Positions 844 to 33,589 of a stretch of 35,699 bases of DNA are shown in pieces; within the stretch, counting starts at the first letter, position 1; every line of letters starts with the position of its first letter. The stretch spans positions 1 through 35,699 of the forward strand of contig NZ_AFPM01000086.1 of assembly GCF_000220565.1 (NCBI RefSeq), written 5' to 3'. The position numbers and the translations under genes were made by a program. Below the pieces are notes generated by a model. It saw only the letters and a program-made list of their open reading frames with translations, was not told the DNA's origin and searched no databases. The DNA is from Oceanicola sp. S124. Its GTDB lineage: Bacteria > Pseudomonadota > Alphaproteobacteria > Rhodobacterales > Rhodobacteraceae.

Positions 844-863
844 TCTAGCCTGTTTGGACGATA
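844..863. promoter_or_regulatory. Weak operator-like dyad A upstream of the GMC operon
   Basis: TCTAGCCT-GTTT-GGACGATA. The right half matches the consensus half-site found at seven other places in the window (GGACGATG), while the left half matches at only about five of eight positions. It lies 55 bp before the chosen GTG start of the GMC oxidoreductase, a position like the other sites. Because one half is poor this is the least certain member of the set. Confidence 0.45.
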
Positions 864-917
864 ATATCTGTGACGGTTCGGCTCATGCTTCTGGCGGCGA
901 CACGAGAGGCAACAGCA

Positions 918-2546
918 GTGAGCAAGGTCAGAACGCAGAGCGACACAGTGGATTACATCGTGATCGGGGCCGGGGCCGCTGGATGTGTGGTGGCTGCCCG
1001 ATTGTCGGCCTTGCCCGGTGTGCGAGTGGCGATGATCGAAGCGGGCGGCAGTGATCACAATCCGTTGATCCACATCCCCGGCGCGAATTTCGCGACCGGC
1101 ACAAACCCCGCCTTCAACTGGAGTTACGAGACCGCGCCGAACCCTGCGCTGGACGGGCGCAGGCTCTACATGTCGCAGGGGCGCGTGATGGGCGGGTCCG
1201 CCTCGATCAACGGCATGATGTTCCTGCGTGGACGTGACAGCGACTTTGACCAATGGGCTGCGTCGGGCGCGACGGGCTGGAGCGCCGCCGAGGTGCGCCC
1301 ATGGTTCGAACGGGCTGAGACCTATTTGGGGCACCCGCGTCCCGGTCGCGGGCAGGGCGGTCCGGTGACGATCACCCGCGGGCACGCCACGGCGCCTGTC
1401 TGCGATCTCTTCCTCGAGGCCGCCACTGCCGACGGGCTGCATCGTAGCGAGGATATCGCGGCGGACGGGCCATCATCCGCGGGCTATGTCGACCTGTCGA
1501 TCCGGCGCGGGCGGCGGGTGTCCACGGCCGCGGCCTATCTGAACGGCGTGGCGCATCGCGGCCGCCTGCGCATCCTGCGCAACGCCCATGTCGCCCGGAT
1601 CGAGATCGCCGGGGGCCGCGCCAAGGGGGTTCATCTGATCCAGCGCGGCGAAACTCGATATCTGAGCTGCCGCCGAGAGGTCATCGTCGCGGGCGGTGCG
1701 ATCAATTCGCCCGCACTTCTGCTGCGCTCGGGCATCGGCGATCCGGCCCGGCTCGGCGCGCTGGGCATCGACGTGCGCGTCGCCAATCCCGGCGTGGGCG
1801 AGAATTACCAGAACCACCCGATGTACAAGATGATGTTCGCCACCACCGCCCCGGTCAGCGCCTATTCTCATCTGCGTCCCTTCGGCGCGCTGAAGGCGGG
1901 TCTGTCCTACCTTCTGGCGCGGCGCGGCGTGCTGGCCAGCGGGCTGTTCCCGGTGGGCGGGTATTTCGAGACCGAGGAAGGCAATCCCGAGACGCTGATG
2001 CAGTTCTGCATGGCCCCGGCGCTGACGATCCGGCGCCGCCCGGGCATCCTTGGCGTGCTGCCGCGCGCCCACGGGTTCTCGGTCTTGCTCTATCAGGCGG
2101 TGCCTTTCAGCCGGGGTCGGGTCGGGATCGCCAGCGCCGATCCTTCCGCGCCGCCGGTGATCGAGGCGAATGTCTTTGGCGATGACCGCGACCTCGACAT
2201 CATGGCAGTCGCCGCATTCAGAATGCGGAAGATGATGGCGCGCCCTCCGATGGGGGGCGTGCTGGGGGAGGAACTGGCCCCCGGTCCGCAGGCCGACAGT
2301 TTCTCGGCCATGCGCGAGGCGATCCGGGCCGAGGTCGGCGCCAATTACCACGTCGCGGGCACCTGCCGGATGGGCAGCGACCCGGACGCGGTCGTCGATC
2401 CCCAGTTGCGGCTGCGCGGGGTCGAGGGACTGCGGGTGGTGGATGCCTCGGTCATGCCGAATGTGGTCAGCGCCAACACCTATGCGACCACCGTGATGAT
2501 CGCCGAGCGCGGAGCCGATTTCATCGCCGCCGCGCATCGCCACTGA
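918..2546 (+). CDS. GMC-family FAD-dependent oxidoreductase (choline/alcohol dehydrogenase type)
   Basis: Members of this flavoprotein family oxidise alcohols to aldehydes or ketones. The chosen GTG start gives 542 aa, with GAGAAG of the FAD-binding Rossmann fold at residues 17-22. The family motif GRVMGGSASINGM follows, and the C-terminal active-site pair is visible as YHVAGTCRMG (His about 478) and SANTYATT (Asn about 520). An in-frame GTG at 870 and ATG at 885 are possible earlier starts, but 918 gives the usual short N-terminus before the FAD motif and has GAGAGG upstream. The gene is first of a four-gene operon and a weak operator-like dyad lies upstream. Family is clear. The substrate is unknown; by context it may be a hydroxylated terpenoid or steroid-derived alcohol. 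Confidence 0.85.
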   Translation: MSKVRTQSDTVDYIVIGAGAAGCVVAARLSALPGVRVAMIEAGGSDHNPLIHIPGANFATGTNPAFNWSYETAPNPALDGRRLYMSQGRVMGGSASINGMMFLRGRDSDFDQWAASGATGWSAAEVRPWFERAETYLGHPRPGRGQGGPVTITRGHATAPVCDLFLEAATADGLHRSEDIAADGPSSAGYVDLSIRRGRRVSTAAAYLNGVAHRGRLRILRNAHVARIEIAGGRAKGVHLIQRGETRYLSCRREVIVAGGAINSPALLLRSGIGDPARLGALGIDVRVANPGVGENYQNHPMYKMMFATTAPVSAYSHLRPFGALKAGLSYLLARRGVLASGLFPVGGYFETEEGNPETLMQFCMAPALTIRRRPGILGVLPRAHGFSVLLYQAVPFSRGRVGIASADPSAPPVIEANVFGDDRDLDIMAVAAFRMRKMMARPPMGGVLGEELAPGPQADSFSAMREAIRAEVGANYHVAGTCRMGSDPDAVVDPQLRLRGVEGLRVVDASVMPNVVSANTYATTVMIAERGADFIAAAHRH

Positions 2547-2561
2547 CAGATCGAGGAGGAG

Positions 2562-3512
2562 ATGAGCATGGAAACCAGGGTTCTTGGCCAATCGGGGCTG
2601 CGCGTCTCGGTGGTGGGCCTGGGCTGCAACAATTTCGGCGGCATGGTCGCAGGGCTTGACGACAGCGCTGCGGAACGCGTTATCCACGCGGCGCTGGATG
2701 CGGGGATCACCCTGTTCGACACCTCTGACAGCTATGGCGCCGAAGGCGGGTCCGAGCGGGTGCTGGGGGCGGCGCTGAAGGGGCGGCGCGATGGCGTCAT
2801 GCTGGCGACCAAGTTCGCCTCGCCCCTCGGCGGCAGCGGCAAGAGCGGCTATGACGGCTCGCGCCGGCATGTCTTCCACGCGGTCGAGGGCAGCCTGCGC
2901 CGACTGGGCACCGATCATATCGACCTGTACCAGTACCATTTCCCCGACCCGCTGACCCCGCTGGAGGAGACGCTGCGCGCGCTCGAAGATCTCGTCCGGG
3001 CGGGCAAGGTCCGGTATATCGCCTGTTCCAACCTGCCGGCGTGGCAGCTGGTGGATGCCAGCTGGACCGCACGCTATCACGGGCTGGGCCGCTTCGTCTC
3101 GACGCAGGCGGAATACAACCTGCTCAGCCGCGACGTTGAGGACAGCCTGTTCCCGGCGCTCCGCGCCACGGGGATGAGCCTCCTGCCCTATTTCCCGCTC
3201 GCCAGCGGCCTTTTGACCGGCAAGTACCGGCGTGGCGCGCTGCCCGAGCAGGGCCGGCTGATCGATCTTCCTTATTTCAAGGCAGGTCTGACCCAGGAAC
3301 GGCTCGATCGGATCGAGGCCCTGGCGGCGATTGCCGAGGCGCATGGCCGAAATCTGCTCGATCTCGCCTTCGCCTGGCTGCTGGCGGAACCGCTGGTCGG
3401 CTCGGTCATGGCCGGGGCGACGAAGCCTGAACAGGTGATCGCCAATGCCGAGGCCGCGCGCTGGCGGCTTGATGCCGCGATGCGGGACGAGATCTCGCAG
3501 GCGCTGGCCTGA
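2562..3512 (+). CDS. Aldo/keto reductase
   Basis: A 316-aa NADP-dependent aldo/keto reductase with the (β/α)8 barrel pattern. The catalytic tetrad is in place: Asp53, Tyr58 (SYGAEGGSE), Lys84 (ATKF) and His126 (QYHF). The C-terminal segment GATKPEQVIANAEA is the usual cofactor-binding end of the YajO/Tas-like subgroup. The ATG at 2562 is preceded by GAGGAGGAG, a strong ribosome-binding site, and the gap to the GMC gene is 15 bp, so the two are surely co-transcribed. It probably interconverts a ketone and an alcohol of the same substrate family as the GMC enzyme. The actual substrate cannot be read from sequence. Confidence 0.88.
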   Translation: MSMETRVLGQSGLRVSVVGLGCNNFGGMVAGLDDSAAERVIHAALDAGITLFDTSDSYGAEGGSERVLGAALKGRRDGVMLATKFASPLGGSGKSGYDGSRRHVFHAVEGSLRRLGTDHIDLYQYHFPDPLTPLEETLRALEDLVRAGKVRYIACSNLPAWQLVDASWTARYHGLGRFVSTQAEYNLLSRDVEDSLFPALRATGMSLLPYFPLASGLLTGKYRRGALPEQGRLIDLPYFKAGLTQERLDRIEALAAIAEAHGRNLLDLAFAWLLAEPLVGSVMAGATKPEQVIANAEAARWRLDAAMRDEISQALA

Positions 3513-5349: not shown

Positions 5350-6894
5350 TCAATTGTTGCGGAACGCGTTCAGCGCCGCGGGCCCGGCGCGCAGCGCCTC
5401 GACCAGATCGCGCTTGCGGATCTTGGCGGCTTCGATCGGCATCGTGTCGATGAATTCAAACCGGCGCGGCACCTTGTAGGCCGCAAGCTGTGCCCGGCAA
5501 TGGGCCTCCAGCAGGTCGGCACTCAGCTCGGCATCGGTATCCTGTACCACAATGGCCACCGGGATCTCGCCCTTCACCTCGTCCGGGGCGGGGACGACGG
5601 CGCAGATCGACACGCCCTTCTGGCGATAGAGCACGCTTTCCACCTCAAGCGGATAGATGTTGTGGCCGCCGGTGATGATGACATCCTTCTTGCGGTCGAC
5701 GATGAACAGGAACCCCTCTTCATCGAGGAACCCCAGATCGCCCGAAAGCCAGCCGTCGGGACCAAAGCTTTCCGCCGTGGCCTCGGGATTGTCGGCATAG
5801 CCGCGGTTGACGCAATCGCCGCCGATCACCACCTCGCCGACCTCGCCCCGCGGAACCGGCTGGCCCGCCTCATCGACGATGGTGATGCGCGACGATCCAA
5901 CCGGCAGCCCGGCCGCCCCGGCCCGGCGCGGCCCGCTGATGGGTTCGATCACGCATTGGCCGCAGGTCTCGGTCGCACCATAGACCTGACTGACGCGCGC
6001 GCCCGAGAGGGCCTCGAATTTCTGGATGATCGGCTGCGGCACCGGCGCGCCACCGGTGGTGCAGACGCGCAGCGACGACAGGTCGTGGCGGTCCGCATCG
6101 AACGCCCCGACCATGTAGACATACATCGTCGGCGTGCCTCCGAAATAGGTCGCCCGGTGGTGGGCGATATCGCTTAGCACGCGTTCGGTGTCCCAGCGTT
6201 CATGCAGGACCAGCGTGCCCCCGGTATAAAGGCAAAGGTTCAGCGTCACCGTCAGCCCAAAATTGGTGAACAGCGGCACGGCGCAGAGATAGGTCTCGGC
6301 CCCGAACCGTGCGCCATGCGCGACCGACATGTCACGCAGCGAACTGGCGGTGGCGAAATGGGTCTGGTCGATCGCCTTCGGCTTGCCCGTGGTGCCCGAG
6401 GAAAAGAACAGCGCCGAGGTGTCGTTGAAATCCTGACGGTGATCGGTGAAGGTTTCGGGTGCCGCGGCGATCAGCGCGTCGAAATCCAGCGCGCCCTTGA
6501 CCGCGCCGCCAAGACAGAACGTCAGAAGGTCGGGCAGACGGGCGGCGATCTGCATGGCCGTGGCGGCACTGCTCTGATCGCAGATCAACGCGCGGATGCC
6601 GCCACGCGTCAGGATGTCCGAAACCTCGGCGGCACGGAACATCGCCGACAGCGGGGCGGGGATCGCCCCCAGCCTCTGACAGGCCCAGAAGGCCGCGGCC
6701 ATCATCGGCGTGCTGGGCAGATAAAGCGCCACGCGCGCCCCCGGCTGCACCCCGGCCTTTTGCAGGGCCCCCGCCATGCGCGCCGTCAGCGCGCCGAATT
6801 CGGCGTAGGTGATCCGGCGGTCTCCGTCGATCAGGAAAGGCCGCTCCGGCACAAGTGCGAGGTTGCGTTGCAACATCTGGTTCAGCGTTTCCAC
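5350..6894 (-). CDS. AMP-forming acyl-CoA synthetase
   Basis: A 514-aa ANL-superfamily ligase that would activate a carboxylic acid with ATP and CoA. Motifs in order: SSGTTGKPK (ATP phosphate loop), YGATETCG, GWLSGDLGFLDEEGFLFIVDRKKD (hinge and ribose-binding Asp) and a C-terminal YKVPRRFEF. The catalytic Lys region reads MPIEAAKIRKRDL, which keeps a Lys but departs from the usual PxTxxGKxxR pattern. It is transcribed divergently from the SDR at 7023, with a perfect copy of the shared dyad between them. It is the second ligase of the cluster and clearly different from the FadD3-like one, so it may activate a side chain or another acid intermediate. Confidence 0.88.
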   Translation of the reverse strand: METLNQMLQRNLALVPERPFLIDGDRRITYAEFGALTARMAGALQKAGVQPGARVALYLPSTPMMAAAFWACQRLGAIPAPLSAMFRAAEVSDILTRGGIRALICDQSSAATAMQIAARLPDLLTFCLGGAVKGALDFDALIAAAPETFTDHRQDFNDTSALFFSSGTTGKPKAIDQTHFATASSLRDMSVAHGARFGAETYLCAVPLFTNFGLTVTLNLCLYTGGTLVLHERWDTERVLSDIAHHRATYFGGTPTMYVYMVGAFDADRHDLSSLRVCTTGGAPVPQPIIQKFEALSGARVSQVYGATETCGQCVIEPISGPRRAGAAGLPVGSSRITIVDEAGQPVPRGEVGEVVIGGDCVNRGYADNPEATAESFGPDGWLSGDLGFLDEEGFLFIVDRKKDVIITGGHNIYPLEVESVLYRQKGVSICAVVPAPDEVKGEIPVAIVVQDTDAELSADLLEAHCRAQLAAYKVPRRFEFIDTMPIEAAKIRKRDLVEALRAGPAALNAFRNN

Positions 6895-6951: not shown

Positions 6952-6971
6952 CATCGTCCGCCGGGACGATG
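6952..6971. promoter_or_regulatory. Operator-like dyad B (perfect inverted repeat)
   Basis: CATCGTCC-GCCG-GGACGATG, a perfect 8-bp inverted repeat with a 4-bp spacer. It is centred in the 128-bp gap between the divergent acyl-CoA ligase (start 6894) and SDR (start 7023), so it could control both. It is the best-formed of eight related sites in the window. Confidence 0.8.
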
Positions 6972-7022: not shown

Positions 7023-7781
7023 ATGACAGGACGTCTGGAAGGCAAGGTCGCAATCATCACAGGCGCGACCTCAGGGATCGGGGCGGCTGCGTCACGGCGC
7101 TTCGCACAGGAAGGGGCCTGCGTCGCCTTGGTCGGGCGTAACCCTGCGCGGGGTGCGGCGTTGGTGGCCGAGATCGATAAGGCGGGCGGACGGGCGGCCT
7201 TTCATGTCCTGGATTTCGAGGCCCCCCAAGGGGTCGAGGACATGGTCTGCGCCGTCGCCGGCGAGTTCGGCGGGATCGACGTGCTTTACAACAACGCCGG
7301 CGGGTCCAGCAGCGCAGATGGACCGCTGACAGTTGCCCCGGAGGCAGAGTTCTGGCGCTGCATTCGGGTGGATCTTTTCGGCAGCTGGCTGATGGCGCGT
7401 CACGTCATCCCGCATATGAAGGTGCGTGGTGGCGGGTCGATCATCAACACCGCCTCGATCGCGGGGGCCATGGGGCTGCCGAACCGCGACGCCTATACCG
7501 CCGCCAAGGGCGGGCTGCTCGCGCTTGGCCGCTCGATGGCGGTGGAATTCGCCGCCGACGGCATCCGGGTGAACACGCTCGTCCCCGGCGCCGTCGGCAC
7601 CGAGCGGGTGCTGCGTTTCTTCGAGGAGGAACCGCATCTCGAAGCGCAGCGGCAGGCTTATCTGCTGGGGCTTGCGCGGCCCGAGGACGTGGTGAACGCG
7701 GCGCTGTTTCTGGCCTCGGACGACTCCGCGCGCACCACCGGCCACATGCTTCCGGTGGATAGCGGCATCCTGATTTCGTGA
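7023..7781 (+). CDS. Short-chain dehydrogenase/reductase
   Basis: A 252-aa classical SDR with GATSGIG at residues 14-20, NNAG near 90, and the complete Ser145, Tyr158, Lys162 triad (AYTAAKGG). GGAAAGGG upstream of the ATG supports the start. It is expected to be an active NAD(P)-dependent alcohol dehydrogenase or ketoreductase. It stands alone, divergent from the acyl-CoA ligase and sharing its operator region. The substrate is unknown, but regulation suggests a step in the same catabolic pathway. Confidence 0.88.
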   Translation: MTGRLEGKVAIITGATSGIGAAASRRFAQEGACVALVGRNPARGAALVAEIDKAGGRAAFHVLDFEAPQGVEDMVCAVAGEFGGIDVLYNNAGGSSSADGPLTVAPEAEFWRCIRVDLFGSWLMARHVIPHMKVRGGGSIINTASIAGAMGLPNRDAYTAAKGGLLALGRSMAVEFAADGIRVNTLVPGAVGTERVLRFFEEEPHLEAQRQAYLLGLARPEDVVNAALFLASDDSARTTGHMLPVDSGILIS

Positions 7782-7814: not shown

Positions 7815-7834
7815 GCTAGTCCCTTCGGACGATG
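7815..7834. promoter_or_regulatory. Operator-like dyad C upstream of the first ABC importer
   Basis: GCTAGTCC-CTTC-GGACGATG. The right half is the consensus, and the left half is the TAGTCC variant also seen, as its complement, in sites E-H. It lies 84 bp upstream of the binding-protein start, in the only sizeable gap before this operon. Confidence 0.7.
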
Positions 7835-7918: not shown

Positions 7919-9121
7919 ATGAAGACCTTTATGACAACCGCCGCGACGGTCGCTCTTGTTGCGGGCATGGCCCAGGCTGCTGACGGGACGGTGAAAGTCG
8001 GCGTGCTGAACGATCAAAGCACGTCGTTCTCGGCGCTCGGCGGCTCCGAGGTCGTGGTGGCCGTTGAGATGGCGATTGCGGATTTCGGCGGAGAAGTCCT
8101 TGGCAAGCCGATCGAATTCGTATCCGCCGATCATCAGAACAAGCCCGACGTGGCGCTGTCGATCGCCCGCGAATGGCTGGATACCGAAGGTGTCGATGTC
8201 ATCATGGACGTGCCGAACTCGGCCGTGGCCCTGGGGCTGAACACCCTGATCGGGGACAGCGGCAAGATGGGCCTTTTCGTCTCGCCCCTGACCGACCGGC
8301 CGACCGAGGCCGATTGCAACGGTCACGTTCTGGCCTGGGCCTATGACGCCTATTCGACCGTTGGGACCGCGGTGAATGCGCAGCTCGACAAGGGGCTGAA
8401 AAGCTTCTTCACCCTCTCGCCCGACTACGAGGCGGGCAAGGTGATGGCCAGCTGGGTGGAAACCGCCGTGACCGAGGGCGGGGGTGAGGTCGTCGGTGCG
8501 GTGGCGGCCCCGCTCGGCACCACCGATTTCTCGTCTTACATCCTTCAGGCACAGGCGTCGGGGGCAGAAGTCATCCAGATCAACCTGAACGGCTCGGAAC
8601 TGATCAATGCCCTGAAGCAAGTGCAGGAATTCGGGCTGATCGCATCCGGCATGGAGGTCGCGGTGACCTTCCTGCACCAGTCCGACGCCCGGTCGATCGG
8701 GGCCGAGGCGCTGGAAGGCGTGCAGTTCGCCGCGCCCTGGTTCTGGACCCAGGACGAGGCCGCCCGCGACTTCGGCACCCGGATGATGGAAGCCACGGGC
8801 AACGCCCCGGGCTGGGTTGCTGCCGGCAATTATTCGGCTGCGATGACCTATCTCAAGGCTGTCGAAGCGGCCGGTACGGATGAACCCGAAGCGGTGATCG
8901 CCCAGATGGAATCCATGGATCTGGACGACCTCTTCGTCCACAACGGCGAGCTGTATCCGAACGGGCGCCTGATCCATGACATGTACCTGCTCGAGGTGCG
9001 CTCGCCCGCCGAGATCGGTGACAGCCAGGAATATTTCAAACTGGAGGCGACGGTGCTTGCCGAGACGGCCTTCCAGCCGCTCAGCGCCACCACCTGCCCG
9101 CTGGTCAACGCGAACGGCTGA
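7919..9121 (+). CDS. Liv-type ABC transporter periplasmic substrate-binding protein
   Basis: A 400-aa type I periplasmic binding protein of the branched-chain amino acid (HAAT) family. It has an N-terminal Sec signal peptide, MKTFMTTAATVALVAGMAQA, with an Ala-x-Ala cleavage site before ADG. The mature protein begins VKVGVLNDQS, the usual first strand of this fold, and the middle holds SPDYEAGKVMASW and the hinge region. GGGAGGATG precedes the start. It opens the first importer operon and is the only binding protein in the window, so it may serve both permease sets. Relatives of this family also bind aromatic and other carboxylic acids. By context the ligand may be a steroid-derived or alicyclic acid rather than an amino acid. 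Confidence 0.9.
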   Translation: MKTFMTTAATVALVAGMAQAADGTVKVGVLNDQSTSFSALGGSEVVVAVEMAIADFGGEVLGKPIEFVSADHQNKPDVALSIAREWLDTEGVDVIMDVPNSAVALGLNTLIGDSGKMGLFVSPLTDRPTEADCNGHVLAWAYDAYSTVGTAVNAQLDKGLKSFFTLSPDYEAGKVMASWVETAVTEGGGEVVGAVAAPLGTTDFSSYILQAQASGAEVIQINLNGSELINALKQVQEFGLIASGMEVAVTFLHQSDARSIGAEALEGVQFAAPWFWTQDEAARDFGTRMMEATGNAPGWVAAGNYSAAMTYLKAVEAAGTDEPEAVIAQMESMDLDDLFVHNGELYPNGRLIHDMYLLEVRSPAEIGDSQEYFKLEATVLAETAFQPLSATTCPLVNANG

Positions 9122-9128
9122 GCACGGC

Positions 9129-9416
9129 ATGGCCGGGTACCTGGTTTTCGACCTCGAGATCACCGACCCCGCGGCTTGGGAGGAATACCGCCGTGAGGCG
9201 GGGCCGGTGATGGACGCGGCAGGCGGGCATTTCGTGATGGCAAGCGCCAGCATCGAACCGCTCGAGGGCGACTGGCATCCCGCCAGCCTCTCGGTTGTGG
9301 CTTTCCCCAGCTATGAGGCGGCGCGGGCATACTACCATTCGCCCCCCTACCAGTCCCTCGTGCCCCTGCGGCAGCGTGCTGCACGTGGGCACGGGGTTCT
9401 TATCAAAGGACTGTGA
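9129..9416 (+). CDS. DUF1330-family small protein
   Basis: A 95-aa protein of the DUF1330 type, a ferredoxin-like dimeric α+β fold. The pattern MAGYLVFDLEITDPAAWEEY, then GGHFVMA, PASLSVVAFPSYEAARAYYHSPPYQ and a C-terminal hydrophobic strand fits this family. It starts 7 bp after the binding-protein stop and ends one base before the LivG start codon, so it is embedded in the importer operon. Family members have no established reaction. A role as a small isomerase, lactonase or binding protein for the imported compound is only a guess. A longer in-frame ORF begins inside the binding-protein gene, but the ATG at 9129 gives the normal family length. Confidence 0.8.
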   Translation: MAGYLVFDLEITDPAAWEEYRREAGPVMDAAGGHFVMASASIEPLEGDWHPASLSVVAFPSYEAARAYYHSPPYQSLVPLRQRAARGHGVLIKGL

Positions 9417-9417
9417 G

Positions 9418-10170
9418 ATGACGGATACGATCATCGAGACCCGGGGGCTGGTGCGCCGGTTCTCGGGCTTCACGGCCGTGGACGGCGTGAACCTGAAGAT
9501 CGCGCGCAATTCGGTACATGCGCTGATCGGGCCGAACGGGGCGGGCAAGACCACGGTCTTCAACCTGATTTCCAAGTTCCTTGCACCAAGCGAGGGGCAG
9601 ATCCTGTTCAACGGTCGCGACATCACCCGGACAAAGCCCGCCGAAGTGGCGCGGCAGGGCATGGTGCGCTCGTTCCAGATCTCGGCGATCTTCGGGCGCA
9701 TGACGGTCGCAGAAAACCTGCGTATCGCGCTCCAGCGTCCGACGGGCCTGTCGATGAACTTCCTGCGTGGTGACACCGTGCTGGCGGGGCTGGACGGGCG
9801 GGTCGACGAATTGCTCGACGCGGTCGGGATGCTGGACTGGCGCGACCGTCCGGCGGCGGGCCTGCCCTATGGGCGCAAGCGGGCGCTGGAGTTTGCCACA
9901 ACGCTGGCGCTCGACCCCGAGCTGATGCTGCTGGACGAGCCGATGGCGGGGCTGGGCACCGAGGATATCGAACGCATCACCGCCCTGATTGCAGGCGAGG
10001 CGCAGCGGCGCACCATCCTGATGGTGGAGCACAATCTGTCGGTGGTGGCCGAGCTGGCCGACCGGATCACGGTGCTGGCGCGCGGCAATATGCTGGCCGA
10101 AGGCAATTACGCCGATATCTCTGCCGACGAGGCGGTGATTGAAGCCTATATCGGGGGCGACATTGACTGA
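9418..10170 (+). CDS. livG: ABC importer ATPase, LivG type
   Basis: A 250-aa ATP-binding subunit with Walker A GPNGAGKTT, the LivG-type signature region LPYGRKRALEFATTLA in place of a classical LSGGQ, Walker B LMLLDEPMAGL and the switch His (MVEHNL). It provides one of the two nucleotide-binding domains for the permease encoded downstream. It starts one base after the DUF1330 stop, and its end overlaps the TTG start of the next gene. The substrate is set by the binding protein and permease, so the liv symbol denotes family only. Confidence 0.9.
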   Translation: MTDTIIETRGLVRRFSGFTAVDGVNLKIARNSVHALIGPNGAGKTTVFNLISKFLAPSEGQILFNGRDITRTKPAEVARQGMVRSFQISAIFGRMTVAENLRIALQRPTGLSMNFLRGDTVLAGLDGRVDELLDAVGMLDWRDRPAAGLPYGRKRALEFATTLALDPELMLLDEPMAGLGTEDIERITALIAGEAQRRTILMVEHNLSVVAELADRITVLARGNMLAEGNYADISADEAVIEAYIGGDID

Positions 10171-10870
10171 GCAACCTGTACTCGAAGTGTCCGGCCTTGA
10201 GGCCTGGTATGGCGAAAGCCAGGCGCTGCACGGCATGGATTTCGTCGTCAATCGCGGCGAGGTGGTGTCGCTTCTGGGCCGCAACGGCGCGGGCAAGTCG
10301 TCCACCCTGCGCAGCATCGTCGGGCTGATGCGCCGCACCCGTGGCGAGGTGCGCCTGCACGGGCAGAGCATCCTCGGAAAGGCGCCAGAGCAGATCGGGC
10401 GCATGGGTCTTGCCTGGTGCCCGGAAGAGCGCGGCATCTTCAACAGCCTGACCGTGGCCGAGAACCTGCGCCTGCCGCCGGTGGTGGCCAGGGGCGGCAT
10501 GAGCGAGGAGGAACTGCTGGCGCTGTTCCCCAATCTCAGGGAACGCTGGCGCAGCCCGGGCGGCAAGCTTTCGGGCGGCGAACAGCAGATGCTCGCCATC
10601 GCCCGCATCCTGCGCACCGGGGCCGACATCCTGCTGCTGGACGAGCCGACCGAGGGGCTGGCCCCCGTCATCGTGCAGGAGATCGCCGAGGTCGTGCGCG
10701 CCATCAAGGCCCGCGGCCTGACCGTGGTGCTGGTGGAGCAAAACTACCGTTTCGCCTCGCGCCTGTCGGATCGCCACTACGTCGTGGAACACGGCAGGGT
10801 GATCGACAGCATGGACCGCGGTGGCCTGGAACAGAACCGTGCCCGCATCGAAACCTATCTGAAGGCCTGA
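10163..10870 (+). CDS. livF: ABC importer ATPase, LivF type (TTG start)
   Basis: A 235-aa ATPase with Walker A GRNGAGKSS, signature LSGGEQQMLAIARIL and Walker B ILLLDEPTEGLAP. The latter is typical of LivF. No ATG gives a full-length protein. TTG at 10163 (MTEQPVLEVSGLEAWYG) yields the usual family length, lies within the last codons of livG and has GGGGGC just upstream, so start by coupled translation is likely. An upstream in-frame TTG at 10139 is also possible but has no ribosome-binding sequence that I can see. It pairs with the LivG protein to drive the fused permease next to it. Confidence 0.88.
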   Translation: MTEQPVLEVSGLEAWYGESQALHGMDFVVNRGEVVSLLGRNGAGKSSTLRSIVGLMRRTRGEVRLHGQSILGKAPEQIGRMGLAWCPEERGIFNSLTVAENLRLPPVVARGGMSEEELLALFPNLRERWRSPGGKLSGGEQQMLAIARILRTGADILLLDEPTEGLAPVIVQEIAEVVRAIKARGLTVVLVEQNYRFASRLSDRHYVVEHGRVIDSMDRGGLEQNRARIETYLKA

Positions 10871-10871
10871 C

Positions 10872-16082: not shown

Positions 16083-16102
16083 CATCGTCCGATGAGACGA
16101 CG
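16083..16102. promoter_or_regulatory. Operator-like dyad D between fadD3 and an SDR
   Basis: CATCGTCC-GATG-AGACGACG. The left half is the consensus, the right half differs at two positions. It lies 90 bp upstream of fadD3 (-) and 59 bp upstream of the divergent SDR (+), so it may regulate both. Confidence 0.72.
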
Positions 16103-16160
16103 CCCATGCGCGCGGCGCGATGCTAGGGGCGTTCCAAGGAATGAGAAAGGGGCTTCTCTC

Positions 16161-22852: not shown

Positions 22853-22872
22853 CATCGTCTGTTGGGACTAAC
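22853..22872. promoter_or_regulatory. Operator-like dyad E upstream of the hydratase-FadE operon
   Basis: CATCGTCT-GTTG-GGACTAAC. The right half is the GACTAA variant. It overlaps the stop codon of the thioesterase gene (22868-22870) and lies about 58 bp before the hydratase start, so a promoter must lie within the end of the thioesterase gene. Confidence 0.75.
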
Positions 22873-23377
22873 AGGCGGGCTGCGGCTCGGTCGAGACGCG
22901 GCGGCGCGTCCCCGGCGGCATCGGAAGATCGGCCTGCGCCCGCTGCGCGGCCAGCAGCGTTTCGGCCAGCGGACCGGACTCCATTTTGCTGACCCTGCGG
23001 GCTTCCAGGTTCATGTGAAGAACCATGGTTTCCATGAAGGCCGAGCGCTGCCCGGTCGTGGCATTCCACAGCTGGAAAAACAGGTGAAACCGCTTGAGAT
23101 CGGTGAACAGGATGCGCCCGGTGCCCAGCAGCGGGGTGCGCTCCATCAACTCGCTTTCATAGCGCATGTGCTTTTCCACCCGGAAGAAGCCGCGCCGTTC
23201 GACCTGCGGATACGCGGGTGTCCAGCCCAGCTGAAGGAACATGGCCCGGTCGATCTCGTCGAGGACGCGATCATAGACCAGCACGTTCATGTGGCCGTTC
23301 TCGTCGATATCCTCGGGACCGACCCGACCGGACCAGGATTGTGTCCCGGCCCAGTCGGGCAGTTTGGCATCAGCCAT
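22868..23377 (-). CDS. Hotdog-fold acyl-CoA thioesterase
   Basis: A 169-aa thioesterase of the 4-hydroxybenzoyl-CoA thioesterase/FatA-like type. The diagnostic N-terminal block is VGPEDIDENGHMNVLVYDRVLDEID, with the Asp and Asn-Gly-His-Met-Asn of the active-site helix. Later strands read FFRVEKHMRYESELMERTPLLG and FFQLWNATTGQRSAFMETMVLHMN. The start at 23377 lies inside the last codons of the LivF gene (8-bp overlap), implying coupling. It may release CoA from blocked intermediates or from the acid side chain. It ends the second importer operon. Confidence 0.82.
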   Translation of the reverse strand: MADAKLPDWAGTQSWSGRVGPEDIDENGHMNVLVYDRVLDEIDRAMFLQLGWTPAYPQVERRGFFRVEKHMRYESELMERTPLLGTGRILFTDLKRFHLFFQLWNATTGQRSAFMETMVLHMNLEARRVSKMESGPLAETLLAAQRAQADLPMPPGTRRRVSTEPQPAC

Positions 23378-24095
23378 GGGCTGCTGCCATCCGCTGTGCG
23401 TTCCACGCCGCAAGCCGGTCGGTCAGTTCCGGCGAGGGGCATTCCAGCGCCACCTGACCACGGCTGACGATCAGGGCGCGGTCGGTATAGGGCTGGGTCA
23501 CCTTCAGGTGCTGTTCCACGATGATCACGGCGGTGCCGCTTTCGGCCCATTTGCGCAGGAAGGCAAGGATCGGCGGCAGCAGCATCTGCGCCACCCCCAT
23601 CGAGGGTTCGTCGCAGAGCAGAACCTTCGGCCGGGCCACGAAGGCCTGCCCGAGGGCAAGGATCTGCTGCTGCCCACCCGAAAGGTCCCGCGCCCGCGCC
23701 TGAGCCTTTTCCTTCAGGATCGGAAAGACCGAGTGGATCTCTTCCAGCGTCTTGGCAAAGGCATCGGGATCGCGCCGCCCGGCCGCCTGACCCAGCCGCA
23801 GGTTGTCATGCACCGTCAGCTCGGGAAACACCCGGTGGTTGTCGAGCACCAGCCGCAACCCCTCATGGGCCGCGCGTTCGGGGGCAAGACCGGTCACGTT
23901 CTTGCCATCCATGATCACGGAGCCCGAAGTCGGGGTGTTGAAACCGCTGATCGCCCGCAACAGGGTCGATTTTCCGGCCCCGTTCTCGCCGCCAATCAGA
24001 AGAATCTCGCCCGGCTCGACGGTCAGAGAGATGTCGCGCACGACCGGGATGTCGCCATATCCGGCCGTCAGGTTCTTGACTTCAAGCATGGGCAT
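23370..24095 (-). CDS. livF: ABC importer ATPase, LivF type (second set)
   Basis: A 241-aa ATPase with Walker A GGENGAGKSTL, signature DLSGGQQQILALGQAF and Walker B VLLCDEPSMGVA, the last typical of LivF. The start MPMLEVKNLTAGYG at 24095 has GTGGGAGG six bases upstream and overlaps the end of the LivM-LivG fusion gene by 14 bp. It is the second nucleotide-binding subunit of the second importer, and is clearly divergent from the first copy at 10163. Confidence 0.88.
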   Translation of the reverse strand: MPMLEVKNLTAGYGDIPVVRDISLTVEPGEILLIGGENGAGKSTLLRAISGFNTPTSGSVIMDGKNVTGLAPERAAHEGLRLVLDNHRVFPELTVHDNLRLGQAAGRRDPDAFAKTLEEIHSVFPILKEKAQARARDLSGGQQQILALGQAFVARPKVLLCDEPSMGVAQMLLPPILAFLRKWAESGTAVIIVEQHLKVTQPYTDRALIVSRGQVALECPSPELTDRLAAWNAQRMAAAHG

Positions 24096-25881
24096 GGTCG
24101 CCTCCCACAAACAGGTGCTGAACGGCAGGGTCTTTTGCCAGGTCTTCCGGGCTGCCCTGCGCGATGCGTTTGCCGGTTTCCAGCACGGTGATGCGGTCAG
24201 CAATCGACCAGACCAGATCGAGATCGTGCTCGACAAGCACGATGGTGGTGCCGAGCTTGCGGCTGAGAAGCCAGATCAGCGACGAGAACTCTTCGCGTTC
24301 CTCGGCGGACAGGCCGGCTGCCGGTTCGTCGAACAGCACCACGCGGCTGTCCTTCAGGGCGACACGCACCACTTCCAGCAGACGGCGCTGGCCATGCGAC
24401 AGCAGCGTCGGCAGTCCCGAGGCGTAATCGTCGCGCATGCTATCAAGGACCGCACGCAGTTCCTTCGGCAGCTCGCTCTGACGGGCGTCCAGACCGACGC
24501 GCACGTTGTTCCACACCGAGAAAGCGGGGAAAATGCGCGGGTTCTGGAAGGTCCGGCCAAGGCCGTGGCGCGCGATGTCGGCGGCGCTGGCCCTGGACAC
24601 GTCGCGCTTGTCGAAGGTGTAGCTGCCTTCGTTCATCCTGCTGAAGCCGTTCAGCACGTTCAGAAGCGAGGTCTTGCCTGAACCGTTGGCGCCCACAAGG
24701 CCGTGGATCTCGCCGGGGCGCAGCTCCAGATCGACCCGATCGACCGCCACCACAGAACCGAAGCGCTTGGTCGCGCCCTTCAGCGAGATGATCGGCTCGC
24801 GGGTTTCAGAGGCCGCATGGTCCGGCAGGCTGTTCAGCCAGTTGGTCAGCGCGCTCAGGTGGAAGGCACGTTCGCCACCGCCGGTCTGGTTGCGCTTGCG
24901 CCGGGCCTCTTCGATCGTGCCGACGATACCGTCGGGGAAGACGATGACCACGATCAGGGTGATGAACCCGTAGATCAGCGGCTTGTACTCGGCCAGATCG
25001 ACCAGAAGCATGTTGGGGATGGTGAAGACGGCCAGAATGCCGAGGATCGGGCCCAAAAGCTGACCACGCCCGCCGACGACCACCGAGAAGAAGAAGATGA
25101 ACGACACGTCCATCAGGAAGCTTTGCGGGGTCACGAAGCTGACCGCAGGCACGAAGAGCACGCCGCAGATCCCGGTGCCGAGGGCGGCCAGGATGAAGGC
25201 CAGAGAACTCATGTGGCCGGGGTTGATCCCCAGCGACCGGGCGGCCTCGGGGCTTTCTGCGGCGGTGCGCATCTGGCGCCCGAGGCGCGAATTGCGGATG
25301 CCGTAGTGGAAGGCCAGCGCCGCGATCGGCAGCAGGGTGCAGAGGATCGACAACGGGCTGATCCCGAGGACCAGCGGCTTCGACAGCCCCGGTGTCGGCA
25401 TCGAGATGCCATTCAGTCCCTGCGTCACGCTGTCCATCTGCAACAGAAGCTGCGGAAAGACGACCGCGGCCGACAGCGTCACGAAGCCAAGGTGAAAGCC
25501 CTGGACCCGCAGCGCGGGCAGGGCGAACAGCAGCCCGCCTGCCACCGCAACGACGATCCCGGTCAGGACGCCGACGAAGACGGGCAGGTCGTTGATCCCG
25601 CTGGCCACGGCAAAGCCGTAGGCCCCCAGGCCAAGCAGCACGCCCTGACCAAAGGATTTCTGACCGGCATCCACGAACAGGAAGTTCTGCAGGATCGTCA
25701 CGGCGATGTAGATGTTCATCAGCTGGAAGGAATGCTCCCAGTAGGAACTGCCCAGAACCGCCGGGATGATTCCCATGGCGACGAGGATGGCGACGGCGAT
25801 CCAGAATTGCGGCAGGTCACTGTCGAAGCGGCCGGGCCTTGGCTTGGGCGAAGCGGGTGTGGCGGTTGTGCTCAAGGTCAT
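24082..25881 (-). CDS. Fused LivM permease-LivG ATPase
   Basis: A 599-aa fusion. Residues about 25-330 are a LivM-type permease: many membrane segments, DAGQKSFGQGVLLGLGAYG, and RQMRTAAESPEAARSLGINPGH as coupling segment. Residues from about 355 are a LivG-type ATPase with Walker A GANGSGKTSLLN, LSHGQRRLLEVVRVAL as signature, Walker B VVLFDEPAAGLS and LVEHDLD. This fusion order is known in some HAAT-type importers. It differs from the first importer, where LivH and LivM are fused. The ATG at 25881 is 4 bp after the LivH stop. No binding-protein gene is adjacent. Confidence 0.88.
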   Translation of the reverse strand: MTLSTTATPASPKPRPGRFDSDLPQFWIAVAILVAMGIIPAVLGSSYWEHSFQLMNIYIAVTILQNFLFVDAGQKSFGQGVLLGLGAYGFAVASGINDLPVFVGVLTGIVVAVAGGLLFALPALRVQGFHLGFVTLSAAVVFPQLLLQMDSVTQGLNGISMPTPGLSKPLVLGISPLSILCTLLPIAALAFHYGIRNSRLGRQMRTAAESPEAARSLGINPGHMSSLAFILAALGTGICGVLFVPAVSFVTPQSFLMDVSFIFFFSVVVGGRGQLLGPILGILAVFTIPNMLLVDLAEYKPLIYGFITLIVVIVFPDGIVGTIEEARRKRNQTGGGERAFHLSALTNWLNSLPDHAASETREPIISLKGATKRFGSVVAVDRVDLELRPGEIHGLVGANGSGKTSLLNVLNGFSRMNEGSYTFDKRDVSRASAADIARHGLGRTFQNPRIFPAFSVWNNVRVGLDARQSELPKELRAVLDSMRDDYASGLPTLLSHGQRRLLEVVRVALKDSRVVLFDEPAAGLSAEEREEFSSLIWLLSRKLGTTIVLVEHDLDLVWSIADRITVLETGKRIAQGSPEDLAKDPAVQHLFVGGDHAHA

Positions 25882-25884
25882 CGT

Positions 25885-26784
25885 TCACACCTTCCGGGCG
25901 GCGGCACGGCCGAACAGGCCCTGCGGCAGGAACATCAGGATGGCGACCAGCAGCAGCAACGAGGCAAGGTCCTGATAGGCGCCGCCGATGTAGAAGGCGG
26001 TCAGCGCAGCGGTGATGCCCACCAGCGGGCCGCCGATCAGCGTGCCGGTGTTGTTACCGATCCCGCCGACCACGGCGGCCACGAAACCGTTCAGCACATA
26101 GCGCAGGCCGGCATCCGGGCTGACCGAGATCATCGGAGCGACCATGAAGCCGACCGACCCGGCGATGACGCCCGAGATGCCGAAGGCCAGAAGCTGCAGG
26201 CGTCCGACGTTCAGACCCGCGGCGCGGGCGGCGTCGAAATCCTGGCTCAGGGCGCTGATCGCCAGACCGCTGAAGGTACGACGCAGGAACCAGCGCAGCG
26301 CGAAATACCATGCGAACATCGACCCGATCGCCAGCAGGAAGGCCCCGTCGGTGCGCACGCCGAGAATCTCGAACCGGGGCACAGGGCCGCGCACCATGTT
26401 GCCGAAGACGCCGAAGTTCAGCGTGAGAATGGCGGCGATGATCACTGAAACCGACATCGTCGAGATCAGCCAGCTGTTTTGCTCTACGCCGGAACGCAGC
26501 GGTTTCAGCGTCAGCCAGCCCTGGGCCGCGGTGAACAGCCCGATGACGATGCTGACCAAGATCAGCATCGGGATCCACACCGCGAATCCGACGCGGTTGG
26601 CCAGCAGGTACGCCCCGAAGGCGCCAAGCATGAAGATCGTGCCTTGCGCGAAGTTCAGGATGCCCGTGGCGTTGTGGACGACATTGAAGCTCATCGCGAT
26701 GATGGCGAAGAGCGATCCGACAGCGGCACCTCGAAGCAGGATCGTCATGATCATGTCGAAGTTTGCAAACATTTCGTTGAGCAT
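25885..26784 (-). CDS. livH: ABC importer permease, LivH type
   Basis: A 299-aa permease with about eight membrane segments: IIAMSFNVVHNATGILNFAQGTIFMLGAFGAYLL near the N-terminus and FVAAVVGGIGNNTGTLIGGPLVGI later, both LivH hallmarks. The start at 26784 has GGGAGG upstream. The frame open to 26880 overlaps dyad F and is not expected to be translated. It is the first gene of the second importer operon and partners the LivM domain of the next gene. Confidence 0.88.
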   Translation of the reverse strand: MLNEMFANFDMIMTILLRGAAVGSLFAIIAMSFNVVHNATGILNFAQGTIFMLGAFGAYLLANRVGFAVWIPMLILVSIVIGLFTAAQGWLTLKPLRSGVEQNSWLISTMSVSVIIAAILTLNFGVFGNMVRGPVPRFEILGVRTDGAFLLAIGSMFAWYFALRWFLRRTFSGLAISALSQDFDAARAAGLNVGRLQLLAFGISGVIAGSVGFMVAPMISVSPDAGLRYVLNGFVAAVVGGIGNNTGTLIGGPLVGITAALTAFYIGGAYQDLASLLLLVAILMFLPQGLFGRAAARKV

Positions 26785-26877
26785 TGGTCCTCCCAAGTGA
26801 CACCGGCGCACCAATACCAATCGGGCCCGCGTCGTGATTTGGCTTGGCGCCATCATGTGATGGGCTTCGGTTTCGCC

Positions 26878-26897
26878 CATCGTCCCTACGGACTAAG
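26878..26897. promoter_or_regulatory. Operator-like dyad F upstream of the second importer
   Basis: CATCGTCC-CTAC-GGACTAAG. It lies 94 bp before livH and overlaps the stop codon of the TetR gene (26893-26895), the same arrangement as dyad E. Confidence 0.75.
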
Positions 26898-27645
26898 CGT
26901 CTCGGACGGGTCGGGGCGCGACAGAGGCGATGATGGCGTTGAGGTCCGCCACGACCTCGCCAAGGCTGCTCTGCAACTGGCGCTGGGATTCATCGTGGCC
27001 CGCCGGGCGACGGATGCTCATAAGCGCCTGTTCCGAAATGAGATCCGCGACTTCCTCCGCCGAAAGCCGCCCGCCTTCGCGGAACCAGCGCGAGGTCCAG
27101 GTGGCCATCCCGATGATGCCGAACGCCGCCACCTGCGGGTCGGTCTGGCGGAATTCGCCGTTGGCGATGCCTTCCTTGATGACATGTAGGTATTCGGCAT
27201 AGATCGCGCGCCGCGAGGCGTCATAGGTCGCGCGCAGGTTCTCGGGAATCTGCGCCTCAAGCCGACCGAGTCGCAGGAAACGCGACCCGAAGGACAACCG
27301 CCGCACCACGCCTTCGCGCACCACGCCCAAAAGCCGGTCCGAGGCCGACAGTTCTGGGTTGCGCGCGATCGACTGGATCGTGCCGACCGGCGCATGGGCT
27401 TCGGCCTCGACCAGCGAGGCCAGAATGTCGTCCTTGGACGTGAAATAATGATAGAGCGCGGAACGCCCCAGCCCGACCTCGCGCGCGATCATCGTCATCG
27501 AGACCCGGTCGAACCCCTGTTCGTCGAACATCCGCGCTGCGATATCCAGCAGTTCCTCTCGCACCAGTTCGCGGCGCGGGTTGGTGTCGCGGCGGGTGTC
27601 GCGCTCGGTGTCGCCCGCAGACGTTGCGCGTTGGGTGTCAGCCAT
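26893..27645 (-). CDS. TetR-family transcriptional regulator, proposed repressor of the cluster
   Basis: A 250-aa TetR protein. The N-terminal DNA-binding helix-turn-helix is clear at residues about 28-72 (DIAARMFDEQGFDRVSMTMIAREVGLGRSALYHYFTSKDDIL). The ligand-binding domain is typical in length, with GMATWTSRWFREGGRLSAEEVADLI near the end, reminiscent of KstR2-like regulators. A 25-residue polar leader precedes the domain. The start at 27645 (AAGGAC upstream) overlaps the TIM-barrel gene. It is the last gene of the thiolase operon, whose promoter carries dyad G, and every transcription unit of the cluster has a similar dyad. I infer that it binds these sites and is released by a CoA-ester intermediate, as KstR2 is by HIP-CoA. 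Confidence 0.87.
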   Translation of the reverse strand: MADTQRATSAGDTERDTRRDTNPRRELVREELLDIAARMFDEQGFDRVSMTMIAREVGLGRSALYHYFTSKDDILASLVEAEAHAPVGTIQSIARNPELSASDRLLGVVREGVVRRLSFGSRFLRLGRLEAQIPENLRATYDASRRAIYAEYLHVIKEGIANGEFRQTDPQVAAFGIIGMATWTSRWFREGGRLSAEEVADLISEQALMSIRRPAGHDESQRQLQSSLGEVVADLNAIIASVAPRPVRDA

Positions 27646-29777: not shown

Positions 29778-29797
29778 CATCGTCTGACAGGACTACG
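29778..29797. promoter_or_regulatory. Operator-like dyad G in the leader of the thiolase-TetR operon
   Basis: CATCGTCT-GACA-GGACTACG. It lies 67 bp before the thiolase start and just downstream of the predicted promoter at 29821-29849. A bound repressor would therefore block transcript start or early elongation, which fits autorepression by the TetR protein of the operon. Confidence 0.75.
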
Positions 29798-29960: not shown

Positions 29961-30959
29961 ATGTTGGATATGTCTTTTGCTAGGTCTGGAACGCAGTCTG
30001 GCCTCATCGACGCGCTGTATGACCTGATCGTCGATCAGGGGGATCTTGTCGCCGCGCTGGAAAGAATCATGCGGGCCACCGTGTCTGTCGGGCTGCGCCT
30101 GAACCGCTGCGGCCGGGGCGAGGATATCCTCCTGGCGACGTTGGGCGACGTCAGCGAAGCCGGTCGCCGGGCCGGAAGCTGCCATGTCAGCAGCCGGGCC
30201 GATGCCTACGGCCGCCGGCTTGAGCTGACGCTGTGCAGCGCGGACGCCGCAAGCCTCGCCGCCTCCGGTTTCCTCGATGGCCTGCTCCTGCACCTGGATC
30301 GAGCGATCACCCTGTCATCACGCCTCGAGAACGCCGATGTCGAGCGGTCGCTCGGGTCCGAGCTTCTGGGTCGTTTGTCGATCGGTACCGTCTTTCTGGA
30401 TGCCGAGCGCCGGGTCGTGGCGATGACCGGTGCGGCGGAAAGCCTTGTCGGCTTGGGGAATGGACTGCACCTGCGCGCCGGCATGCTTACCGCCAGTTTC
30501 GGCCATGAGGACCGCGCCCTGCAGACGGCGATCCGTCAGGCGATGGAAGCGGGGCCGGACGAGGTGCCGACCGTGCTTCAGATCCAGCGCCAGCGCGACG
30601 AACGCACCCTCGGCGTCGTGGTTCAGCCTGTCGCGCGCGGCGCGCGCAACGGCGGCATCGTCTGTTCAGTTGTAATCCGCGATGGAGAAGCGGCCAATGA
30701 GCCGCAGGTCGACATGCTGCGCCGCCTGTTCGAACTGACGCCGGCCGAGGCGGTACTGACCAGCATCCTGTCGAAGGGTCACACGCTGGACGAAGCTTCG
30801 GAAGAACTGGCGATCAGCCGCAACACCGCCCGCGCGCACCTGCGCTCGATCTTCTCGAAATGCGGCATCAACCGGCAGACCGAGCTCGTGCGCCTGGTGC
30901 TGAGCAGTGTCGCCATGCTGGGCACATGCACTCCGGGCGCACCGCGTCAGGCTGCCTGA
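29961..30959 (+). CDS. LuxR-family (GerE-type HTH) transcriptional regulator
   Basis: A 332-aa regulator. The C-terminal DNA-binding domain is LTPAEAVLTSILSKGHTLDEASEELAISRNTARAHLRSIFSKCGINRQTELVRLV (about residues 253-312), a clear LuxR/GerE helix-turn-helix. The N-terminal 240 residues have no motif I can name. A PAS-like segment around LLGRLSIGTVFLDAERRVVAMTGAAESLV (about 133-160) suggests ligand sensing. GGGAGGAGG lies upstream of the ATG. It is divergent from the thiolase operon, stands alone, and has no copy of the dyad within its own proximal leader. It may be a second regulator, perhaps an activator of the pathway. A terminator follows. Confidence 0.85.
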   Translation: MLDMSFARSGTQSGLIDALYDLIVDQGDLVAALERIMRATVSVGLRLNRCGRGEDILLATLGDVSEAGRRAGSCHVSSRADAYGRRLELTLCSADAASLAASGFLDGLLLHLDRAITLSSRLENADVERSLGSELLGRLSIGTVFLDAERRVVAMTGAAESLVGLGNGLHLRAGMLTASFGHEDRALQTAIRQAMEAGPDEVPTVLQIQRQRDERTLGVVVQPVARGARNGGIVCSVVIRDGEAANEPQVDMLRRLFELTPAEAVLTSILSKGHTLDEASEELAISRNTARAHLRSIFSKCGINRQTELVRLVLSSVAMLGTCTPGAPRQAA

Positions 30960-31014: not shown

Positions 31015-31046
31015 CATCTTTTCCATGCTGGGGGGAGGGCGGCGTT

Positions 31047-31817: not shown

Positions 31818-31818
31818 C

Positions 31819-32619: not shown

Positions 32620-32633
32620 GATGTCACCCTCGA

Positions 32634-33512
32634 TCAGAACACGGGAATGGGAAGGTTGCGAATGGCCTCTGCGCCGCCAAGCGCCGCGACATAGCTGTCC
32701 TCGCCATCGGCGACGTACTTGGTCACGAAATCGGCCCAGGCCTCGGCGTCGCCTGCGGTGGCGCCGTATTCCTTCAGATGCGCCATGTCCCAACCATAGA
32801 ACCCGTGCGACAGCGTGGGGTGGGCGCCAAGCGGGGCATGGACGACCATGTCGACCACGCCACGATGGAACAGGCTCTTGCGGGCATCGGGGCCATCGCT
32901 TTCGGACAGGCTGTCCACCAGCTCTTCGGTGCTGACGATCACCCGCTCGGCGGCACCGGCGAAGAGATCGTCGAAATAGGGATCGTTGCCCTCGGTGCGG
33001 GTGTTGCCGCGCGCATCCGAACGCGACACGTGGATCAGCGCCACGTCCAGCGGCAGCGCAGGCATCGCCAGCAAGACGTCGCCCGCGTCATAGGGCGACA
33101 CCACGGTCTTGATCTCGGGATTGATCTCAAGGATCGCGCTGCCCAGACCCACGCGGGTCGGGGCGAAGGGCACGCCCTCGGCGGCGGCGCGCAGCCCCAG
33201 CAGCAGCATCCCCTCGTCAAGTTCGCGCACCTCGAAGGTGCCGGCCTCGCGGGCGCGGCGATACCACGGCTCCAGCGGGATCTGATCCAGTGACACGAAG
33301 CCATAGGTGACCTTGGCCACCTTGCCGGCAGCGCAGAGCATCCCCACCTCGGGGCCGCCATAGGTGACGACATGCAGGTCCTTCAGATCGGACCGCAGGA
33401 TTTCACGGATCAGGGCCATCGGCTTGCGCCGGGGGCCCCAGCCACCGACGCCGATGGTCATGCCGTCGCGCAGGCTGGCGATGGCACCGGAGAGGTCGGT
33501 CCTTTTGTCCAT
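32634..33512 (-). CDS. ipdA: IpdA-like subunit of the COCHEA-CoA hydrolase
   Basis: A 292-aa CoA-transferase family I α-type subunit, the same length as I recall for mycobacterial IpdA. The order DKRTDLSGAIASLRDGMTI, GGWGPRRKPMALIREILRSDLKDL, VVTYGGPEVGMLCAAGKV and YGFVSLDQIPLEPWYRRARE matches IpdA almost block for block. LDEGMLLLGL holds a Glu (residue 100) near where the catalytic Glu of IpdAB is reported. The start MDKRTD at 33512 is chosen by alignment with IpdA. Upstream ATG at 33545 and GTG at 33521 are alternatives. Dyad H lies 58 bp upstream. Together with ipdB this is the strongest marker for HIP catabolism in the window. Confidence 0.9.
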   Translation of the reverse strand: MDKRTDLSGAIASLRDGMTIGVGGWGPRRKPMALIREILRSDLKDLHVVTYGGPEVGMLCAAGKVAKVTYGFVSLDQIPLEPWYRRAREAGTFEVRELDEGMLLLGLRAAAEGVPFAPTRVGLGSAILEINPEIKTVVSPYDAGDVLLAMPALPLDVALIHVSRSDARGNTRTEGNDPYFDDLFAGAAERVIVSTEELVDSLSESDGPDARKSLFHRGVVDMVVHAPLGAHPTLSHGFYGWDMAHLKEYGATAGDAEAWADFVTKYVADGEDSYVAALGGAEAIRNLPIPVF

Positions 33513-33569
33513 TACTTCACTCACTCTAATTGTCTTCGGGCCCATCGTGGTACGACGGGCCCGATCAAT

Positions 33570-33589
33570 CATCGTCTGTTGAGACTAAC
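33570..33589. promoter_or_regulatory. Operator-like dyad H upstream of ipdAB
   Basis: CATCGTCT-GTTG-AGACTAAC. It sits in the gap between the MaoC-like gene and ipdA, 58 bp before the ipdA start. It shares its left half and spacer with dyad E. Confidence 0.75.

Follow-up and report, generated by a model that had tools for sequence, protein, structure and literature searches.

A 20-bp dyad at the promoters of a steroid-type catabolic cluster in Oceanicola sp. S124: the probable operator of a LuxR-type activator

Which protein reads the 20-base-pair (bp) dyad that recurs in front of the catabolic operons of Oceanicola sp. S124? The question is raised by contig C254 of the 4.65-Mb draft genome, which carries the catabolic cluster and whose 35,699 nucleotides, the whole stretch analysed here, we call the window. 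A first-pass annotation of the window had listed eight such dyads and named the TetR-family protein encoded at 26893-27645 as their natural binder. According to the available part of a 2021 review (PMC8399759), regulation in bile-acid-degrading Proteobacteria is largely unknown and KstR homologues are absent from them. From the genome comparisons described below we estimate, at a probability of roughly 0.84, that a TeiR/TesR-like LuxR activator of steroid catabolism in Proteobacteria uses the dyad as its operator and controls here mainly C/D-ring genes and importers; the candidate is the LuxR-type regulator encoded at 29961-30959 on the plus strand, whose orthologues share a recognition helix and whose distribution follows that of the dyad.

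The dyad itself is beyond chance, as had been claimed. Seven of the eight listed places (6952, 7815, 16083, 22853, 26878, 29778 and 33570) match the core ATCGTCY-N4-RGACKA exactly, as against a mean of 0.005 and a maximum of 1 in 200 first-order Markov resamplings, and when spacers of 0 to 12 were tried in the window matches appeared at spacer 4 only. The remaining site, at 844, is one mismatch away from the core; it is absent among the 29 matches with up to three mismatches to the 20-mer, and by eye has four. The eight-site description is therefore real, but the consensus that came with it masks an asymmetry between the half-sites: at promoters serving one direction the dyad, oriented with the gene, reads TAGTC(C/T)-N4-(A/G)GACGATG, with TAGTC distal and GACGATG proximal to the gene. 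Site 844 deviates in both halves (TAGCC distal, GACGATA proximal), and the dyads at both divergent promoters (6952 and 16083) are near-symmetric.

The same element is recovered when no consensus is supplied. We took 300-base regions upstream of nine head genes (ipdA, fadA6, ech1, livH2, livK1, fadD3, ligA, sdr5 and sdr2) in other genomes, 76 regions after removal of similar ones, with 760 random pieces from the same loci as background, and counted all pairs of 4-mers with spacers of 0 to 16; ipdB was left out of the comparisons. All 14 top pairs shown are pieces of the dyad, and AGTC-N7-ACGA occurs in 44 of the 76 upstream regions compared with 19 of the 760 background pieces. This analysis, rather than scoring with matrices, is our main evidence, because the sites used to train the matrices were picked by the consensus core and the matrix ranking is thus partly circular: with matrices built from 44 sites of TetR-bearing relatives, 12 of TetR-less alphaproteobacteria and 23 from outside the class, the eight window sites are all among the first 8, 8 and 9 distinct places, respectively, site 6952 (11.8) scoring with the outside-class matrix no better than shuffles (up to 11.7).

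Orthologues of the window TetR protein occur in 16 loci (49-63% identity; Rhodobacteraceae, Cypionkella, Oceanibium, Stappia, Nitratireductor, Aquibium, Rhizobiaceae and others), where dyads precede the orthologous fadA6, livH, ech1, ipdA, livK, fadD3/SDR (short-chain dehydrogenase/reductase) and ligase/SDR units, not all units in each locus. The placement upstream of orthologous operons is therefore repeated in relatives, and with it the idea of one operator shared by transport, activation and ring cleavage holds up. When 15 of these relatives were scanned over their whole genomes (that of locus L040 was left out), all 15 had the exact core, with 102 matches on both strands and 2 for a reversed-pattern control, a control that understates the background, as GACGA-type matches arise in unrelated genomes too. 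For this reason TAGTC-type matches were counted separately from the listings; by manual count they make up 53 of the 102, three of the four Stappia genomes having none. A relative of the LuxR protein is also found in 15 of the 15, so that TetR-bearing genomes cannot decide between the two regulators.

Genomes lacking the TetR orthologue are more informative in this respect. Among 385 genomes of the class, eight, the own genome included, have a match to IpdA. None of the other seven has a TetR orthologue (best score 65 bits, as against 291 in G040), and five of the seven (G477, G254, G380, G457 and G537) carry a LuxR relative (118-129 bits); together these five contain 31 exact core matches (control 2), 13 of them TAGTC-type. 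The other two, G264 and G362, of about 2 Mb each, have neither a LuxR relative nor a TetR orthologue, and zero exact dyads. Sites in G477, G254 and G380 lie directly upstream of HsaA-, HsaC- and KstD-like genes (names below NCBIfam cut-offs), with luxR and ipdA on different contigs, and both G457 and G537 have one site next to the gene of a FadD3-like ligase on the contig that carries luxR. A profile of 16 LuxR orthologues (A1) was also run on 398 genomes of the phylum and matched 73 of them. Four outside-class genomes, G646, G882, G865 and G663, reach 324-348 bits to this profile compared with 350 for the window's own protein, and they hold 18, 4, 6 and 11 exact core matches, respectively (39 together, control 0), of which 11, 1, 5 and 8 are TAGTC-type. 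Best TetR scores in these genomes are 47-58 bits, with none in G865. Many of their dyads stand upstream of HsaC-, HsaA- or KstD-type genes and near luxR genes, a placement that covers part of the matches (several are unannotated, and six G646 matches elsewhere were left out); IpdA-type genes are also among the genes downstream of placed dyads in the genomes searched. There are, then, nine dyad-bearing genomes without a TetR orthologue, and all nine carry a LuxR relative. The luxR gene is found in or near a steroid-type cluster in the window, in many relatives and in L294, L301, L305 and L309. As background we used 34 other genomes, namely 24 with lower-scoring LuxR relatives and 10 of the same family without a match at 1e-25 (these ten as background only), which gave 53 exact matches (control 14), only four of them TAGTC-type.

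The distance between the dyad and the promoter also speaks to the kind of regulator. An alignment of 61 oriented TAGTC-type alphaproteobacterial sites has a single conserved block downstream, with A at offset 39 in 38 of the 61, a T-rich stretch at 43-44 and a weaker A at 51, and among 23 outside-class sites A39 is present in 21 and T43 in 18. YARNNT at offsets 37-39 was found at 18 of 49 sites in TetR-bearing genomes, as against a mean of 1.24 and a maximum of 10 for 134 control windows, and at 6 of 12 sites in TetR-less genomes (control mean 0.14, maximum 2). If offsets 38-43 form the -10 hexamer, with A39 as its second letter, and are placed at -12 to -7, then -42.5 is the predicted position of the dyad centre (offset 7.5); the column profiles of the 61 and 23 sites show no conserved -35 hexamer between the dyad and the -10 element. 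An activator site has to hold a fixed register to the -10 element, which is not required of a repressor site. The possibility of promoter elements within the dyad had been considered by eye as well, and was dropped once the -10 block was found further downstream. Among known systems, the lux box at class II promoters of LuxR quorum activators is likewise a 20-bp dyad centred near -42.5, without a conserved -35 element and read by a LuxR-family helix-turn-helix, but its sequence is another one, and no Pfam autoinducer-binding domain is found here.

Among the LuxR orthologues, all 16 members of A1 match the LuxR-type C-terminal helix-turn-helix (Pfam GerE) at E-values up to 0.01. The recognition helix N-T-A-R-x-H-L does not vary among these 16 and is found again in the outside-class genomes G646, G882, G865 and G663, a further copy in G646 reading NTVRAHL; in this helix most LuxR proteins that score 216 bits or less are different. 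A maximum-likelihood tree has a branch (97/93) that sets apart all 22 rows from dyad-bearing genomes; long-branch rows of G862 and G718 fall on the same side. The structure model of the window protein (pLDDT 77, pTM 0.51) shows an alpha/beta region at the N-terminus, one long helix, a PAS-like segment and a helix-turn-helix, and among its best Foldseek matches in the PDB are VqmA (6e-7) and EL222 (3e-5), their TM-scores being low, about 0.2-0.3. Pfam assigns a PAS family to one member of A1, and in A1 gave no kinase family. The simplest reading of the model is a ligand-gated one-component activator; that its N-terminal part might sense a steroid-derived ligand is a guess. Such an activator would use the gene-oriented box TAGTCY-N4-RGACGATG as a site centred at about -42.5 and replacing the -35 element: a dimer of the protein would bind the box and recruit RNA polymerase to a degenerate -10, thereby switching on import, CoA activation and the beta-oxidation and ring opening of steroid remnants (HIP-type C/D-ring compounds).

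Several observations weigh against this assignment. The GerE score of the window protein, 23.4 bits, is just under the Pfam cut-off of 23.5, and the protein is divergent, its nearest relative having about 40% identity and its end branch a length of 1.29. Matches of the GACGA type occur as background, and every match in G457 and G537 is of this type; one match in G663 falls within a gene resembling a hydratase (L299). G862 has the helix NTARAHLRSIF, yet its genome has one GACGA-type match only, so that the helix alone is no predictor of the dyad, and both G862 and G718 group with the dyad genomes but have no TAGTC-type dyad. Finally, window sites 7815, 29778 and 33570 have a poor match to the -10 element, the spacing resting on the whole set of sites.

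One may also consider the assignment originally put forward, with the TetR protein as the binder of the dyad, here taken to be a repressor of the KstR2 kind that a CoA ester releases. The tetR gene does lie inside the window regulon, its orthologues are within the cluster in 16 loci, and TetR operators are commonly palindromes. As sole binder TetR was nonetheless rejected, as the dyad persists beside steroid-type genes in the nine genomes where no TetR match exceeds 65 bits, versus 291 for the orthologue, tracks the LuxR protein, and keeps its activator-type distance to the -10 element at TetR-less sites too (the 6 of 12 and 21 of 23 above); we regard this explanation as highly unlikely, and we conclude that the earlier assignment had found a real operator and regulon with the wrong protein attached. 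A compromise, in which LuxR activates and TetR, where present, competes for the same box as a repressor, would suit the joint presence of both relatives in all 15 TetR-bearing relatives and the position of tetR under a dyad; the core sequence, however, showed no difference between genomes with and those without TetR, and we consider such sharing improbable.

The comparison covered TetR and LuxR only, and other TetR-family genes lie near some TetR-less sites (open reading frames in L221 and L231), so there is a small chance that a third regulator common to all these genomes reads the dyad; the LuxR genes with their conserved helix, however, are in or near the site-bearing clusters in many genomes. 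As for a pattern produced by chance or coding bias, exact GACGA-type matches do arise without a high-scoring LuxR protein (the 53 matches of the 34 background genomes, the reversed control giving 14), but the TAGTC type makes up 4 of those 53 compared with 53 of 102 in TetR-bearing relatives, and the single spacer, the consensus-free recovery and the conserved placement make this explanation hardly credible.

If the LuxR protein is the reader of the dyad, a place has to be found for TetR (26893-27645, minus strand; Pfam TetR_N and TetR_C_24). Its gene is the last of the operon behind the dyad at 29778, and in L047 tetR follows an SDR-like gene behind a one-mismatch dyad. Lying downstream of the dyad, it looks like a regulon member and is best seen as one, perhaps a feedback regulator with another operator. 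It is not a KstR2 orthologue, scoring 85.6 bits to 3dcf versus 44.5 to KstR2. The KstR2 motif is a shorter palindrome with CAAG/CTTG arms. The published KstR2 of actinobacteria, a TetR repressor released by HIP-CoA according to the available text of PMC5380842, has a regulon resembling the present one in its ipdAB, FadD3-type ligase, thiolase and dehydrogenases and in having a tetR gene in the cluster, but there the regulator is the TetR repressor, whereas here the dyad accompanies a LuxR-type protein.

The nearest parallel is probably TeiR/TesR, to which the window LuxR protein is probably related. As far as the accessible text of a 2019 paper goes (PMC6895838), TeiR/TesR activates steroid clusters in Comamonas testosteroni and tesR-like genes are reported only there. 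The likeness lies in a LuxR-type regulator in or near a steroid cluster (PMC6895838, PMC6678751 and PMC8700777, each in its available part) and, if the proposed role holds, in positive control of kstD-, hsa- and ring-degradation-type genes; it is drawn from published descriptions, and the available parts of these sources report no operator. TeiR also differs in being described as a polar membrane kinase (in the accessible text of PMC6678751), as against the alpha/beta, PAS-like and helix-turn-helix model and the lack of a Pfam kinase here. In Caenibius tardaugens, the pdc progesterone cluster has a LuxR regulator that was compared with TesR (PMC12239570); it resembles G457 in that a LuxR-type gene stands beside a luciferase-like monooxygenase, and the available part of that paper mentions no operator. 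In G457 itself (L234, 4331-7496) a dyad lies between the genes of the FadD3-like ligase and the luciferase-like monooxygenase, with the LuxR gene nearby. EdcR of the same alphaproteobacterium also recognises a palindrome common to the promoters of steroid (oestrogen) genes (PMC8700777, available part), but that operator, TnnCnnTACnAnTnGTAnnGnnA, overlaps the -10 box and belongs to a TetR-type repressor, so that both sequence and position differ. No such operator is described in the accessible portions of PMC13101464, PMC4810484, PMC10637631 and PMC3591248, and a literature search over titles and the starts of abstracts found no description of it, one in a subscription journal being possible.

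We further consider it fairly probable that a near-invariant 20-bp box, read at -42.5 by soluble PAS-type TeiR/TesR-like LuxR activators, is a common code of aerobic steroid catabolism in several deep groups of Pseudomonadota. Were this so, box and recognition helix would stay while the enzymes, the order of the genes and the additional members (Liv-type importers, KstD, HsaA, HsaC and HIP genes) vary, and whole clusters could move between classes with their control intact. In practical terms, with one operator and a named candidate activator this regulation can be tested directly, LuxR rather than TetR being the first protein to purify; the 20-bp box could serve as a tag for finding unrecognised steroid genes, the importers here included, and could provide parts for steroid biosensors.

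Within the window, ten transcription units adjoin dyads. Gene names are working labels: ipdA (32634-33545, minus strand), the marker of C/D-ring (HIP) degradation, is so called from PDB matches (6co6/6co9, 6coj and 6con, E 1e-83 to 1e-80), and the FadD3 match, at 653 bits, compares with a cut-off of 657. Dyad 1 (844-863, plus strand) is upstream of the GMC-AKR-epimerase-SDR operon and, although weak, with its distal half TAGCC, ranks with the other sites in matrix scans. All the others have the exact core. The symmetric dyad 2 (6952-6971, matching on both strands) lies between a divergent acyl-CoA ligase gene (5350-6894, minus) and an SDR gene (7023-7781, plus), a position repeated in relatives L200 and L202. 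Dyad 3 (7815-7834, plus) is upstream of importer 1 (a livK-type gene at 7919-9121, then genes to 14340), as it is in L200, L201 and L204, and the near-symmetric dyad 4 (16083-16102) lies between the divergent genes of a FadD3-type ligase (14422-15993, minus) and an SDR (16155-16958, plus), as in L200, L201 and L203. On the minus strand, dyad 5 (22853-22872), kept in L037, L039, L040 and others, precedes an operon for a hydratase, two acyl-CoA dehydrogenases, a thiolase, an OB protein and an SDR (22795 down to 17027). Dyad 6 (26878-26897, minus) precedes importer 2 (livH, livMG and livF; 26787 down to 23370) and has a few bases in common with the end of tetR; it occurs as a one-mismatch form in L037, L038, L039 and L040. 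Dyad 7 (29778-29797, minus), in a gap that also faces luxR, is upstream of the thiolase/TIM-barrel/tetR operon and is kept upstream of the thiolase gene in relatives, and dyad 8 (33570-33589, minus) is upstream of ipdA-ipdB-SDR and kept in L037, L040, L208 and L211. The claim that a dyad precedes every transcription unit of the cluster thus stands for these ten and falls short for two others: ech20-sdr8-maoC, at the window edge, has no upstream site in view, and luxR has no dyad in the window that can clearly be assigned to it.

In G646, two dyads (L296 18529 and L297 6432) stand at the 3' ends of luxR copies and point away from them; the gene downstream may be co-controlled with the regulator. 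In the window, two Liv-type ABC importers (7919-14340 and 23370-26787) are found inside a steroid regulon.

Across the 4.65 Mb of the own genome the exact core gave 11 rows, eight of them for the seven window places, two places in C29 and one in C34. The C34 match looks by eye like ABC-transporter-type coding sequence. The weaker matches in C82 and C184 were rejected, lying inside a LysR-like frame and inside a coding frame, respectively; other weak matches have matrix scores of 15.7 (C222) and 8.8 (C335). The two dyads of C29 share one intergenic region (L031 10625-12071), flanked by a thiolase gene and by the gene of a third periplasmic-binding protein, and a possible weak dyad in the same contig (L031, about 4552; matrix score 15.7) lies where a double acyl-CoA dehydrogenase frame begins.

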